From the NCBI GenBank assembly GCA_028282245.1, contig JANQIL010000102.1, positions 1 to 33,620 on the forward strand: DNA of 33,620 nt. The letters run 5' to 3'. The stretch comes from Magnetospira sp. Lineage in GTDB: Bacteria; Pseudomonadota; Alphaproteobacteria; Rhodospirillales; Magnetospiraceae. Both the position numbers and the translations under genes were made by a program. This document shows, piece after piece, positions 1 through 33,471 of this stretch. The notes beneath the pieces were generated by a model. It had not been told where the DNA came from and searched no databases. It saw only the letters and a program-made list of their open reading frames with translations. The number at the start of each line of letters is the position of its first letter. The stretch's first letter is position 1.

Positions 1-103
1 CAAAACCACACTAGAATCAGATTATTACCTAGTGTCCTGATCGAATCCGAAGTTCGAAAACGCCCGCCAAACAATGCTCCGAACTTCGGATTCGGGACAC
101 TAG
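1..103 (-). repeat. Composite double-hairpin repeat, copy 1 (cut by window start)
   Basis: This is a minus-oriented copy of the repeat seen whole at 3009-3175. Bases 1-14 are the end of the 78-bp hairpin, 15-28 are the 14-bp linker and 29-103 are the complete 75-bp hairpin. The 75-bp hairpin has CTAG at both ends, a 9-bp foot (CTAGTGTCC against GGACACTAG), a 4-base bulge, and a 15-bp upper stem (CGAATCCGAAGTTCG against CGAACTTCGGATTCG) around a loop of about 23 bases. It shares its last CTAG (100-103) with the divergent element that follows. Confidence 0.9.
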
Positions 104-214
104 CGGATCGGATCCAACGCTTGGTACCCAAGCTTTGGATCCGATCCGCTAAGTTATTGATCTGGTGGTTCGATGCCAACGGATGGGACTCATCCGTTGG
201 CATCGAACCACTAG
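100..214. repeat. Divergent double-hairpin element, 53 + 9 + 53 bp
   Basis: Two near-perfect hairpins of 53 bp each (100-152 and 162-214) flank a 9-bp linker. The feet are CTAG/CTAA and CTGG/CTAG. The first stem reads CTAGCGGATCGGATCC and the second, read from its outer end, CTAGTGGTTCGATGCC, so the two are related in inverted orientation but differ in sequence while each stays self-complementary. The linker region shares CTA-R-GT and ATCTG with the linker of the 167-bp repeat. It abuts copy 1 through a shared CTAG. I do not recognise this family. Bases 215-298 hold only the leader of the next gene. Confidence 0.8.
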
Positions 215-3008: not shown

Positions 3009-3175
3009 CTAGTGTCCCGAATCCGAAGTTCGGAGCATTATTTGGCAGGCGTTTTCGAACTTTGGATTCGATCAGGACACTAGGTAGTAATCTGATTCTA
3101 GTGTGGTTTTGGATTCGAAGTTCGCCGTGGAGTTTGCCCCGAATAATGTCGCGAACTTCGAATCCACCACACTAG
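3009..3175 (+). repeat. Composite double-hairpin repeat, copy 2 (complete)
   Basis: This is a complete 167-bp unit. Hairpin 1 (3009-3083, 75 bp) has foot CTAGTGTCC/GGACACTAG, a bulge ATCA on its 3' arm and upper stem CGAATCCGAAGTTCG with one mismatch. The linker GTAGTAATCTGATT is at 3084-3097. Hairpin 2 (3098-3175, 78 bp) has foot CTAGTGTGG/CCACACTAG, a bulge TTTT on its 5' arm and upper stem GGATTCGAAGTTCG. The reverse complement of hairpin 2 resembles hairpin 1, including CATTATT in the loop, so the two are inverted relatives. The 387-base gap 2983-3369 otherwise holds only GC-rich leader sequence (3176-3369), in which I see no convincing promoter. Confidence 0.92.
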
Positions 3176-7830: not shown

Positions 7831-7997
7831 CTAGTGTCCCGAATCCGAAGTTCGGAGCATTGTTTGGCAGGCATTTTCGAACTTCGGATTCGATCAGGAC
7901 ACTAGGTCATAATCTGATTCTAGTGTGGTTTTGGATTCGAGGTTCGCCATGGAGTTTGCCCCGAATAATGTCGCGAACTTCGAATCCACCACACTAG
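7831..7997 (+). repeat. Composite double-hairpin repeat, copy 3 (complete)
   Basis: This 167-bp unit has the same build as the one at 3009-3175: hairpin 1 at 7831-7905, linker GTCATAATCTGATT at 7906-7919, and hairpin 2 at 7920-7997. CTAG ends each hairpin. It lies between the J-domain gene and galU, 51 bases before the galU start, and would be in the galU leader if transcription begins upstream. The 302-base gap 7747-8048 holds nothing else I can support. The linker contains CATAAT, but no matching -35 sequence is visible. Confidence 0.92.
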
Positions 7998-28686: not shown

Positions 28687-31600
28687 TCAGGTCGCCGCGA
28701 GCTTCGCCTCCGTCTCGTTCAGCAGGGCCTCGAAATCCTCGGCCGACAGCGGCTGATGAAACAGGAATCCCTGCGCCGCGTCGCAATCCATTTTCTTCAG
28801 TTCGGCGAGTTGCTGTTCCGTCTCGACGCCCTCGGCGATGACCCGCATGCCAAGCGAATGGGCCATTGATATGATGGCATCGGCGATCGCCTTGTCATCC
28901 GGATCGTCGGCGATCCCGTCGACGAAGCTGCGGTCGATCTTGATTGCCTTGATCGGATAGCGCTTGAGGTAACTGAGCGACGAATAGCCGGTGCCGAAAT
29001 CATCGATGCTGATCCCGAACCCATGGGATTTCAGGTCGAGGAGCGCCTTGACGACATGTTCCGAGTTCTCCATCAGGGAGCTTTCGGTCAACTCGATGCC
29101 AATCCGCGACGGTTCCAGTCCGTGCCGCTCGATCAACACCCGCATCATTTCGTCGACCTTGCCTTTCTTGAAATGCTGCCCCGACATGTTGATGTAGATT
29201 CGCGGCACGTTCAGGCCCGTGCCCAGCCACTGGGCGACGTGCTCGAACACGGTGCGGCAAATCCACTCCGTTAGCCCGACGATCAGCCCGGTCTGCTCGG
29301 CGATCGGAATGAACTTCACCGGCGACACCACGCCGATGTCCGGCAGGGTCCAGCGGACCAGCGCCTCGGCACCCGTTATGCGACCGCTGCGGAGGTCGAT
29401 CTGCGGCTGGTAAACCATCCGGAAATCGCCGCGCGGGATGGCCTGGCGCAGGCCGGTCTCAAGGGTCAGCCTCTGCTGCGCCACCACCTTCATTTCCTGG
29501 GTGAAGCTGCAATACTGGTTCTTGCCCTGGTCCTTCGCCCGGTACATGGCGGTATCGGCGTTCTTGAGCAGGGTCTGGCTGTCCTCGCCGTCGGTCGGAA
29601 ACACGCTCATGCCGATGCTGGCCGAGACGAACAGCTCGCGGCCGTGGATGCCGAACGGGGTGCCAAGCTGGTCGATGATCCGCTCGGCGATCACCGATGC
29701 CATCGTGTAATCGGTATCCTCCAGCAGCACGGTGAATTCGTCGCCTCCCAGGCGGGCCACCGTGTCTTCCTCGCGCACGCAGTCGAGCAACCGCGTCGAT
29801 GCCTCCTTGAGCAGCAGGTCGCCGACGTCGTGCCCCATGGTGTCGTTGATGACCTTGAAGTTGTCGAGATCGATGAACATCACCACGATGTTGGTGTGGG
29901 TGCGCTTGGCGCGCGCGATGGCGTGCTTCACCCGATCGGTGAACAGGCTGCGATTGGGTAGGTTGGTCAGGTCGTCATGGGTCGCCAGATACTCGATGCG
30001 GCGCTGCGACGACTTGATGACCGTGATGTCCGAGAAGATGCCCACGTAGTTGGTGATGACGCCGTGTTCGTCCTTGACCGCGTTGACGGTCAGCCATTCC
30101 GGATAGACCTCGCCGTTCTTGCGGCGGTTCCAGATCTCGCCCTGCCACCAGCCGTCGCGTTTGATCGCCGCCCACATTTCCTCGTAGAATTCGGGGGAAT
30201 GGCGGCCCGACTTGAGAACCGCCGGGCTCCGTCCGACGACTTCCTCGCGGCTGTAACCGGTTACCGTGGTGAACGCATCGTTGACGGTGATGATGCGGCT
30301 GTCCGCGTCGGTGATCGAGATGCCCTCGCCGGCCCGATGGAACACCTTGGCGGCCAGGCGCAACTGCTCCTCGGCCTGGCGGCGTTCGGTGATGTCCTCG
30401 GCCTGGGTGCACAGGGCATGGACGCCGAGGGCGTCCGAGATCAATGGAAAGCGGACCGTCCGGAACCGCTTGCGCAGGCCTCGGTGCTCGTACTCGTCCT
30501 CCTTTTCCAAGGTTTTCCGTTTCTGGAGCACCTCCAGGTCGCCGTTGCGCAAATGGTCGGCGATGCGGGCCGGCAGGATGTCGTGGTCGGTGTGGCCGAG
30601 AATCGCGTCCTCGCTCAGCCCAATCCAATGCGTGAACCGACGGTTGACGAATTCATAACGCCCCTGGGTGTCCTTGACCGTGAACATGAAGGTGGAGTGG
30701 TTCATCACCTCGGTCATGCGGGCGTGGCTGTCCGATACGCTCTGCTGCGCGTTGTGCAGGTCGGTGTTGTCGACCATCGCGATGATGACGCCGGTCAGGC
30801 TGTCCTCGGCGCTGATGCAAGGCGACACCAGGACATCGTAGTGGCGGTCCCAGAGGGCCAGCGCGACCTCGCGGCCGGTCCGCGTGTCCATCACCGCGCG
30901 GGCGGCCTCCGGCAGGGCCTGTAGCGGTCCGGGCAGCCCGAGCACGTCGAGTTGCTGGCCGCGCACCGCGAACGACAGGCCCAGTTGCAGGCTCGCCGCC
31001 TGGTTCAGGCGCTTGATGGCGAGGTGCCGGTCGAGAACGATCAGCGGGAAGGTCAGGCTGTTGTTGACGTTCTCGAAGTCGACGTTGACGGCCGACAGTT
31101 CGGCCGATTTTCTGATCATCTCCTGGTTGAGGGAAACCAGTTCCTCGTTGGTTGCCTGCAATTCCTCGTTGGAGGCTTCCAGTTCCTCGTTGGTCGCCTG
31201 AAGTTCCTCGTTGGAGGCCTGGATTTCCTCGGTCAGGGCCTGCATTTCCTCGTTCGAGGTTTCCAGTTCCTGGTTGAGGGTCTGCAGGTGCTCGCGGGTC
31301 GCGGTGAGTTCGTTTTCCAGTTCGCCGTTGGAAATCTGCACCGGCTCGTCGGCCGCTCCCTGGCCGCGGTCGCGGGCGCCCGGCGTGACGATCTCGAAAC
31401 AGACCAGGAAATAGTCTTCCGCGTGCGCCCCGGGCAGCGGATGCACCACCACCCGCATCGATACCTTGGCGCGCCCCTTGTCGATCCGCTTGCCCCGGCC
31501 GCGCACCGATTTGCCCTTTTTCTGGGCGTTGTGAATCAGCACCTGAACATCGGTGCGGAACTCTTCGCGGACGATGTTGGTGAGAATCATGCGCGGCTGA

Positions 31601-33243
31601 CCGTCCGGGAACCGGAGAATTGTTTCGAGGTCGCCCGAGGCATGCAGCAGGTTCAGCTTGCCGTCGACCAGGACCGCCGCCGGCACATAGTGCTCGATCG
31701 CCGCCTGCTGGAACAGCGTTCGAATCCGTTCCTCCCGACGCGGCGCCGTCGGGGTTGGCTGGGGCGCGCTTTTCTTGTCGATCTGGTCGCGGAGCAGGGC
31801 GCTGGCGAGGCTCTTGTGCTTGCCGCCCTTGGGTTGGAACAGGCGCCATTTTCCGATCACCGGAATGAACAGGTCGCTCTGCTGGGCGACGCTCTCGGAG
31901 CGGCCAAGGAACAGGAACCCGCGCGTCTTGAGGGCGTGGAACAGAATGGAGAGGACCTTGGCCTGGGTTTCCTGCTGGAAATAGATCAGCACGTTGCGGC
32001 AGGAGATCAAATCCATGTGCATGAACGGCGGATCGAGAATCAGGTCCTGGCGCGCGAACACCACGGTGTCCCGCAGATCCTTCGAAACCTCGCAGTCGCT
32101 GCTGCGCGCGACGAAAAAGGCGTCCGCCAGTTCCGACGGAACCTCCGACAGCGCGGTGATCGAATAGACGCCGCGCCGGGCGGTGGCGAGGGCGTTGACG
32201 TCGATGTCCGTGGCATAGACCACGAGCCGGTTGGAGAGTCCCTTCTGGGCCATCCGGTCAAGGAACATCATGGCGATCGAATAGGCTTCCTCGCCGGTCG
32301 CGCAACCGGGGACCCAGGCGCGGATCTCCTCGCCGGAGAGCTTCTCCTCCAGCACCGCGTCGACCGCCTTGCCCAGCGCCAGAAAGGCGTCGCGGTCGCG
32401 AAAGAAGGAGGTCACCGAAATCAGGATTTCGCGCGTGAGGTTGTCGAGTTCCTTCTCGTTGGCCTGCGCGTAGGCCACGTATTCGGTCACCGATTCGGAG
32501 TGGGTGACCGCCATGCGGCGCTGGATTCGCCGCTCGATGGTTGTCGACTTGTAACCCCGAAAATCGATTCCCACCTGGCGGCGGACCAGGGTGAACAGGA
32601 TTTCCAGGTCGGATGCGGCGTCGCCCTCGGCGCCCGCCGCGTGGATTTCCGGCAGCACGGCCAGCGACAGGATCCGGTTGGCGATCTCCTTGGGCGGCAG
32701 CACCATGTCCACCGCCCCGGTGTCGATGGCCGAGCGCGGCATTCCGTCGTATTTCGCGGTTTCCGGGGTCTGCACCAGAACGGTGCCCCCGGCCGCCTTG
32801 ATCGCCTTGACCCCGACCGCGCCGTCGCTGCCGGTCCCCGACAGGATGACCCCGACCGCCATGTCGCCCAGTTCGTCGGCCAGCGACCGGAAGAACATGT
32901 CGACCGAGGGTTTCGGAACCACCTTTTCCGGCGGATCCAGAAGGTGGAAAATGCCGTCGCGAATCTGAACATTGTGGTTGGCCGGGGCGACGTAGATCAC
33001 GTCGGGCACCGGCGTCTCGCCGTTCTTGACCTCCTGGACCGCCAGCGGCGTGTCGCGGCCGAGCAACTGCACCAGCATGGATCGGTAATGGGGCGACAGA
33101 TGCTGGATCACCACGAAGCTGCAATCGGAGCCGATCTCGATGGCGCCGATCATGGCTGTCAGGGCTTCCAGTCCTCCGGCCGACGATCCGATGCCGACGA
33201 TTGGCCAGGTTATGGGCTTGTGTTTATTGGTGCTTGAATCCAA
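28687..33243 (-). CDS. CheB-CheR-PAS-GGDEF-EAL multidomain protein
   Basis: This 1518-residue protein fuses a CheB methylesterase domain (about 12-195; S21 in GIGSSAGG, IQHLSP, SGTGSDG), a CheR methyltransferase domain (about 212-475; TSFFRDRDAF, PGCATGEEAYSIA, SCRNVLIYF), a PAS-like part, a coiled coil with NEELQATNEELEASNEEL repeats (about 650-735), three PAS parts (about 735-1095), a GGDEF domain (GGDEF at 1166-1170) and an EAL domain (EAL at 1293-1295, DDFGTGYSSL, AEGVET). REED, five residues before GGDEF, is a product-inhibition site. Both c-di-GMP sites look active. The start is TTG 33243 with AAGG upstream. It lies upstream of bphP on the same strand. Confidence 0.93.
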   Translation of the reverse strand: MDSSTNKHKPITWPIVGIGSSAGGLEALTAMIGAIEIGSDCSFVVIQHLSPHYRSMLVQLLGRDTPLAVQEVKNGETPVPDVIYVAPANHNVQIRDGIFHLLDPPEKVVPKPSVDMFFRSLADELGDMAVGVILSGTGSDGAVGVKAIKAAGGTVLVQTPETAKYDGMPRSAIDTGAVDMVLPPKEIANRILSLAVLPEIHAAGAEGDAASDLEILFTLVRRQVGIDFRGYKSTTIERRIQRRMAVTHSESVTEYVAYAQANEKELDNLTREILISVTSFFRDRDAFLALGKAVDAVLEEKLSGEEIRAWVPGCATGEEAYSIAMMFLDRMAQKGLSNRLVVYATDIDVNALATARRGVYSITALSEVPSELADAFFVARSSDCEVSKDLRDTVVFARQDLILDPPFMHMDLISCRNVLIYFQQETQAKVLSILFHALKTRGFLFLGRSESVAQQSDLFIPVIGKWRLFQPKGGKHKSLASALLRDQIDKKSAPQPTPTAPRREERIRTLFQQAAIEHYVPAAVLVDGKLNLLHASGDLETILRFPDGQPRMILTNIVREEFRTDVQVLIHNAQKKGKSVRGRGKRIDKGRAKVSMRVVVHPLPGAHAEDYFLVCFEIVTPGARDRGQGAADEPVQISNGELENELTATREHLQTLNQELETSNEEMQALTEEIQASNEELQATNEELEASNEELQATNEELVSLNQEMIRKSAELSAVNVDFENVNNSLTFPLIVLDRHLAIKRLNQAASLQLGLSFAVRGQQLDVLGLPGPLQALPEAARAVMDTRTGREVALALWDRHYDVLVSPCISAEDSLTGVIIAMVDNTDLHNAQQSVSDSHARMTEVMNHSTFMFTVKDTQGRYEFVNRRFTHWIGLSEDAILGHTDHDILPARIADHLRNGDLEVLQKRKTLEKEDEYEHRGLRKRFRTVRFPLISDALGVHALCTQAEDITERRQAEEQLRLAAKVFHRAGEGISITDADSRIITVNDAFTTVTGYSREEVVGRSPAVLKSGRHSPEFYEEMWAAIKRDGWWQGEIWNRRKNGEVYPEWLTVNAVKDEHGVITNYVGIFSDITVIKSSQRRIEYLATHDDLTNLPNRSLFTDRVKHAIARAKRTHTNIVVMFIDLDNFKVINDTMGHDVGDLLLKEASTRLLDCVREEDTVARLGGDEFTVLLEDTDYTMASVIAERIIDQLGTPFGIHGRELFVSASIGMSVFPTDGEDSQTLLKNADTAMYRAKDQGKNQYCSFTQEMKVVAQQRLTLETGLRQAIPRGDFRMVYQPQIDLRSGRITGAEALVRWTLPDIGVVSPVKFIPIAEQTGLIVGLTEWICRTVFEHVAQWLGTGLNVPRIYINMSGQHFKKGKVDEMMRVLIERHGLEPSRIGIELTESSLMENSEHVVKALLDLKSHGFGISIDDFGTGYSSLSYLKRYPIKAIKIDRSFVDGIADDPDDKAIADAIISMAHSLGMRVIAEGVETEQQLAELKKMDCDAAQGFLFHQPLSAEDFEALLNETEAKLAAT

Positions 33244-33304: not shown

Positions 33305-33471
33305 CTAGTGTCCCGAATCCGAAGTTCGGAGCATTGTTTGGCAGGCGCTTTCGAACTTCGGATTCGATAAGGACACTAGGTAACGGTCTGATTCTAGTGT
33401 GGTTTTGGAGTCGAAGTTCGACATGGAATTTGCCCCGAATAATGTCGCGAACTTCGCTTCCACCACACTAG
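33305..33471 (+). repeat. Composite double-hairpin repeat, copy 4 (complete)
   Basis: This 167-bp unit has hairpin 1 at 33305-33379, linker GTAACGGTCTGATT at 33380-33393, and hairpin 2 at 33394-33471. Hairpin 2 carries changes on both arms (GGAGTC against GCTTCC) that weaken pairing in this part of the stem. It begins 61 bases from the start of the long GGDEF-EAL gene, so the promoter of that gene must lie within 33244-33304 or in the repeat. Its last CTAG is also the first CTAG of copy 5. Confidence 0.92.

Follow-up and report, generated by a model that had tools for sequence, protein, structure and literature searches.

REPINs are regarded as the partners of RAYT enzymes, by which they are moved. 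A REPIN is a dispersed chromosomal unit made up of two related palindromes in inverted orientation with a spacer (Bertels and Rainey 2011, PMC3116915; Nunvar 2010, PMC2817692). The CGTC repeats, found mainly in Alphaproteobacteria, often occur as head-to-head dimers with no link to transposase genes; their units have stems of 8-9 bp and a CGTC, TGTC or CCTC tag, and CTAG is unmentioned in the main text of that report (PMC3733652). The short, non-autonomous MITEPsy1 (IS5-family ISPsy2) was reported to move in trans and to insert at CTAG or YTAA, duplicating 4 bp (PMC3189936). A preference for CTAG was also described for IS630/Tc1-mariner elements (Tenzen and Ohtsubo, as quoted in PMC2170065). 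These elements duplicate TA. Br-REP1 and Br-REP2 are multi-palindrome intergenic repeats of Bradyrhizobium, and the authors mention, showing no data, a larger Br-REP2 form in Nitrobacter and Afipia (PMC5082802).

Here we analyze a repeat of approximately 165 bp from Magnetospira sp. (draft genome G000; 3.17 Mb, 3,170,690 bases in 168 contigs). The window, i.e. the whole stretch of 33,620 nucleotides under study, begins and ends with its contig. Like a REPIN, the repeat joins related inverted palindromes and a spacer into one dispersed chromosomal unit, shows compensatory changes, and has single hairpins that look derived. It differs from REPINs in that all of its four feet are CTAG, the hairpins measure 75-78 nt, insertion sites are of the CTAG type and most carriers lack a Y1 transposase. 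Tagged palindromes are also shared with the GTAG and CGTC REP families (PMC3733652), whereas tag and size both differ from those of the CGTC family. MITEPsy1 is similar as a short non-autonomous element with inverted ends and CTAG insertion, but its terminal repeats (GGAAGGTCTGAAAAAGCC) are different and no mirror-image doublet is described there. IS630/Tc1-mariner elements share the preferred target CTAG; the ends of the IS630-type copies in G000 nevertheless differ from those of the element. The published consensus sequences of Br-REP1 and Br-REP2 do not resemble it; the larger Br-REP2 form is not shown in PMC5082802, and there is a slight chance that it is identical. The preliminary description of the locus had not recognized a known family, and neither Rfam nor the open-access literature yielded a described one that matches. 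The papers listed by PMC for the foot sequences were all unrelated, and no paper was found that joins REPIN, RAYT and Alphaproteobacteria. The family is apparently undescribed.

Architecture and copies of the repeat

The preliminary description had placed three full copies of a compound repeat in the window, each with hairpins of 75 and 78 bp separated by a 14-bp linker, and the copies and lengths are exactly as claimed (Table 1). Its bulges also lie where it had put them, on the linker-facing arm of both hairpins (ATCA in hairpin 1; TTTT versus a single A in hairpin 2), and its view of two related hairpins in mirror orientation is confirmed. All four feet carry CTAG. Folded as DNA, a copy reaches −47.2 kcal/mol versus −16.9 ± 2.9 kcal/mol for shuffled sequences (z = −10.3). 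In forms of 120-131 bp (L329-L331) the loops are almost absent while feet, stems and linker are retained.

Table 1. Features of the window and single hairpins of the source genome.
Feature	Position	Strand	Remarks
Compound element copy 1, full, 167 bp	3009..3175	+	Sequence match and DNA folding
Hairpin 1 of copy 1, 75 nt	3009..3083	+	Outer arm 3009-3032, inner arm 3056-3083, extra ATCA 3071-3074
Linker of copy 1, GTAGTAATCTGATT, 14 nt	3084..3097	+	
Hairpin 2 of copy 1, 78 nt	3098..3175	+	Inner arm 3098-3125, extra TTTT 3107-3110, outer arm 3151-3175
Compound element copy 2, full	7831..7997	+	Orthologous site empty in same-genus genome G001
Compound element copy 3, full	33305..33471	+	
Copy 4, cut by contig end	33468..33620	+	CTAG 33468-33471 common to copies 3 and 4
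Copy 5, cut by contig start	1..103	-	CTAG 100-103 common to copy 5 and second-family element
Second-family element, 115 bp here	100..214	-	Two CTAG-footed hairpins, other stem sequences
Unbulged single hairpins in G000	C3:10574, C12, C39, C45:8680, C99:501, C118:9196		

Searching G000 with the 167-bp query gave 47 matches, of which approximately 36 cover the element fully or nearly so and most are 92-98% identical. A pattern for the outer ends matched 50 times forward and 50 times reverse (control pattern: 0), which amounts to about 50 copies if halves at contig ends are counted. A chance origin of the repeat is excluded. The repeat breaks the G000 assembly, several of its copies being truncated where contigs end. 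The preliminary description would have been refuted by only a few copies with no empty sites in relatives; copies proved to be many, and element-free orthologous sites exist.

Besides the compounds, G000 contains six unbulged single hairpins of 71-75 bp; both of their ends have the outer spacing, and ends of the hairpin-1 and hairpin-2 types are combined in several ways. A bulged single hairpin is also present (C102:1985). A second family with unrelated stems (GTGGTTCGATGCCAACGG / GTGGATCGGATCCAACGC) but the same layout occurs in the window and at other sites. Its typical copies again have the extra bases on the inner arms, and many junctions between both families were found in G000.

Two side observations concern sequence composition. 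GANTC, the CcrM methylation site, is frequent in the element (14.5 per kb; 123 sites versus 33 in shuffled sequences for 51 diverse copies) and falls in both arms of hairpin 1 and at the end of the linker, where the middle base varies (e.g. window positions 3019, 3065 and 3094); common descent alone may be the source of this enrichment. A different repeat of the window, eight units spaced by 21 nt (31097-31306) within a CheB/CheR-PAS-GGDEF-EAL gene (28687-33243), likely encodes a coiled-coil heptad repeat.

Spacing of the ends and pairing of the stems

The foot CTAGTGT and a core GAAGTTCG are present in all four arms. In the outer arms the distance from the start of the foot to the core is 16 nt in 179 of 188 (hairpin 1) and 175 of 188 (hairpin 2) copies. 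In the inner arms it is 18-20 nt, and 16 nt in a single copy out of 188. The outer arms of both ends thus represent one bipartite motif, CTAGTGT...GAAGTTCG, i.e. common terminal inverted repeats, and the inner copies of this motif are mis-spaced by 2-4 nt. The bulge can therefore be described as a change in spacing which is restricted to the inner copies.

We favor, with some reservation, the interpretation that the repeat is a REPIN-shaped, MITE-like, non-autonomous element which is mobilized in trans by a putative CTAG-inserting transposase and whose ends are the outer arms. Each end would consist of a tip, TGT(CC/GG), just inside CTAG and of the core at its fixed distance. A transposase encoded elsewhere would recognize both outer ends and insert the unit at CTAG, leaving CTAG on either side, probably as a 4-bp target duplication. 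An inverted copy follows each outer arm, which gives the hairpins, and an insertion of 2-4 nt in each inner copy (T-rich, read from the foot) alters the spacing between tip and core; this would keep the enzyme from cutting inside. The putative transposase probably acts on double strands.

The stems are well conserved as pairs. In a set of 51 diverse sequences, partly picked for CTAG, standard pairs occupy 98.6% of the pair cells. Both sides have changed at 26 of 48 pairs, and the changed cells comprise 232 both-side versus approximately eight one-side changes; if the partner is slid by one column, pairing falls to about 40%. The CTAGTG feet are invariant in this set. The double changes are Watson-Crick ones and G-T intermediates hardly occur; this indicates hairpins that are kept as DNA and argues for a constraint at the DNA level. 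A structured RNA family was considered and rejected, since Rfam models gave no match up to E = 1 and both-side changes prevail with few G-T steps.

Pairing looks different in young and old copies. In the fresh copies of G000 and G001 only one-sided changes occur and no both-arm changes. The copies of G349 and G481, which are 71-87% alike, contain 33 both-arm Watson-Crick changes versus 7.25 expected; these are of 23 kinds, nearly all confined to one or two copies. Some of the changes mirror each other in the feet of a single hairpin (CGAG/CTCG, GCAG/CTGC; L451-L466), so feet can lose CTAG and yet remain paired. Single old copies thus seem to retain their pairing, either through selection or through template-switch correction. 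A model of plain terminal repeats needs no lasting hairpins, and the private paired changes in the old copies count against it.

Two alternatives start from these observations. The pairing could result from template switching at near-palindromes during replication, i.e. from mutational correction and not from selection. Besides the mirrored foot changes in G349, two copies in which one arm has been rewritten to match another would fit such a process (C118:36265, where the inner bulge is lost, and C92:22501, where the left end is of the hairpin-2 type). The extra bases of the inner arms should, however, be corrected away in this process, and their persistence across lineages in almost every copy speaks against correction alone and makes the explanation highly improbable.

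The second alternative regards the hairpins as residents with a role for host DNA or transcripts (3'-end processing, termination or binding of a nucleoid protein), which spread anciently and are immobile now. The excess of both-arm changes in the old G349 and G481 copies, some of them in feet, is in agreement with such a role, and so are the many copies at gene ends. Shared positions point the same way: two Afipia records (L215 and L245) agree in the intergenic location of the element and differ by divergence of its linker, and we regard this copy as an old orthologous one; copies also lie at the same place in both members of the pair G157/G158. We still consider long residence quite unlikely as a general explanation, given that the G000 copies are mostly 92-98% alike at some 50 dispersed sites with element-free orthologues, that the missing both-arm changes in G000 and G001 make single copies there look unconstrained, and that the scarcity of G-T steps speaks against a function as RNA. 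The copies compared in G457 are 90-96% alike.

CTAG as a candidate insertion target

Neighboring elements share a single CTAG. This applies to a pair of the main family at window position 33468, and to elements of the main and the second family at about ten sites. CTAG is otherwise rare: outside the elements the window contains three, whereas base composition predicts approximately 100 and trinucleotide content 20. We further determined which frame next to an element is open for longest, counting stretches of 150 codons or more. On 79 of 327 element sides it is the frame that stops at the TAG of the foot; the other two frames hold this place on 30 and 26 sides. Some of these stretches may lie antisense to real genes, which creates no bias toward one frame.

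Element-free relatives allow individual stops to be compared. At L008 the gene ends with AAC TAG where G001 has AAC TGA at the same codon, and at L014 with CGC TAG where the element-free orthologue has CGC TGA, again at the same codon. A Roseibium SDR gene that ends in the foot measures 726 bp, the same as element-free Sulfitobacter genes. These three cases show the TAG of the foot as the natural stop. Together with the CTAG-sharing tandems and the overall coincidence of foot and stop, they make CTAG look like the insertion target.

Orthologous element-free sites were found in G001 for L008 and L014 as well as for the second copy of the window, and one G001 copy is absent from G000. At two such sites exactly 4 nt replace the two feet of the occupied allele. 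These tetramers are CTGA, CCAA or others and not CTAG, and the relative is about 80% identical; the CTAG target is for this reason something that we infer. At the locus of the first copy, G001 has an oppositely oriented copy whose immediate flanks differ and which is probably an independent insertion.

In agreement with the preliminary description, which had noted CTAG instead of the GTAG/GGAG-type foot of REPIN/RAYT systems, the outer feet read CTAG/CTAG in 145 of 202 less selected copies, and the variants are mostly one-sided. Matched feet other than CTAG occur on both sides of two copies only (GTAG/GTAG and CTGG/CTGG), compared to approximately 0.7 estimated by chance; we dropped this as an argument for target duplication, the difference having no significance. 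The 4 nt of the element-free sites and the sharing of CTAG by tandems would fit a 4-bp duplication, which we regard as probable. The similar decay of inner and outer feet also fits CTAG as a part of the element itself.

Distribution and the putative enzyme

A covariance model detected the element in 21 of 385 genomes sampled evenly across Alphaproteobacteria. The carriers belong to many families in a patchy manner and have several copies each. The number of copies and their lineage-specific sequences count in favor of a mobile element. An order-wide search found it in 20 of 317 genomes. A pattern of inner feet and linker matched at least 115 stretches in named genomes, among them Afipia, Nitrobacter, Bradyrhizobium, Devosia, Pseudolabrys, Pseudorhodoplanes, Hyphomicrobium, Acidiphilium, Paramagnetospirillum, Parvularculaceae and others. 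Within a set of 60 relatives, the same-genus genome G001 contains many copies, and of the rest G016 alone matched, with degenerate compounds and single hairpins.

The distribution is chromosomal and patchy. Plasmids or phages were considered as vehicles and rejected: one plasmid locus was found (Roseibium/Labrenzia), the phage collection gave no match to the element, and the core pattern matched four viral contigs. In one of these (L471, 4346-4349) a compound provides the stop codon of an ORF resembling phage terminase, and a second compound lies 2 kb away. This looks like insertion into phage-derived DNA; an autonomous element between the two copies was rejected, as the intervening ORF resembles a phage terminase.

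The preliminary description had proposed a REPIN-like layout and a trans-acting enzyme, to be sought as a RAYT or IS5/IS630-type gene flanked by the same hairpins. The layout holds, and the need for an enzyme acting in trans on a dispersed, non-autonomous element was in our judgment rightly seen. The RAYT mechanism is not supported. Y1_Tnp (PF01797) matched in 0 of 3, 4 of 20 and 2 of 14 carriers by set and is missing in 28 of 34 distinct compound-bearing genomes, so the element is not a member of the RAYT/REPIN system; CTAG moreover behaves as a target, unlike the RAYT foot.

An IS630-type enzyme was rejected as well. DDE_3 has no match in 11 of 26 carriers, including the single-contig genome G344. 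One IS630-type transposase gene in G000 starts at the CTAG foot of a compound (C83; L076, 1399-1868), and the ends of this copy differ from the hairpins.

IS481 elements use the target NCTAGN and have TGT ends. Because the IS481 profile picks up further rve transposases too, we relied on its absences only; it has no match at all in G349, G481 and G640, and IS481 was rejected on this ground. These three genomes also lack Y1 and DDE_3 matches; the copies in G349 and G481 are old, and their enzyme may be lost. G457 has Y1 and IS481 matches and none for DDE_3.

No transposase family recurs among the ORFs beside copies in the sampled part of each carrier genome. Such ORFs cluster as ordinary paralogues, as orthologues or as translated repeat sequence, which removes a linked gene in this sample from the candidates. 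No transposase gene with the ends of the element was found among the G000 outer ends or in 0.8 Mb around copies.

The repeat could also be a REPIN analogue that is moved as single-stranded DNA by a hairpin-recognizing enzyme other than Y1, for which the bulge of the inner arm would serve as the mark. The mirror-image doublet of stable DNA hairpins, the Watson-Crick covariation with few G-T steps, the polar bulge that is always on the inner arm, and the chromosomal, patchy distribution would all be expected from such an element. We consider it unlikely, because Y1_Tnp is missing in most carriers, unbulged single hairpins exist at several sites, and the symmetrical use of the CTAG target together with the fixed outer spacing fits double-stranded ends better.

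A REPIN-shaped repeat that is spread class-wide, with most carriers lacking a RAYT, indicates that this shape is independent of that enzyme. We tentatively suggest, as a possibility that goes further, a class-wide family of CTAG-targeting twin hairpins which is chromosomal and amplified by lineage via a putative domesticated non-Y1 transposase, and which might represent a second, independent solution of the REPIN/RAYT type. The fixed outer and shifted inner spacing provides a concrete rule for the choice of ends in a palindromic element with four of them. If the element inserts at CTAG, in many cases at the stop codon of a gene, the tolerance of many copies would be understandable; the element further accounts for contig breaks in the genomes that carry it.
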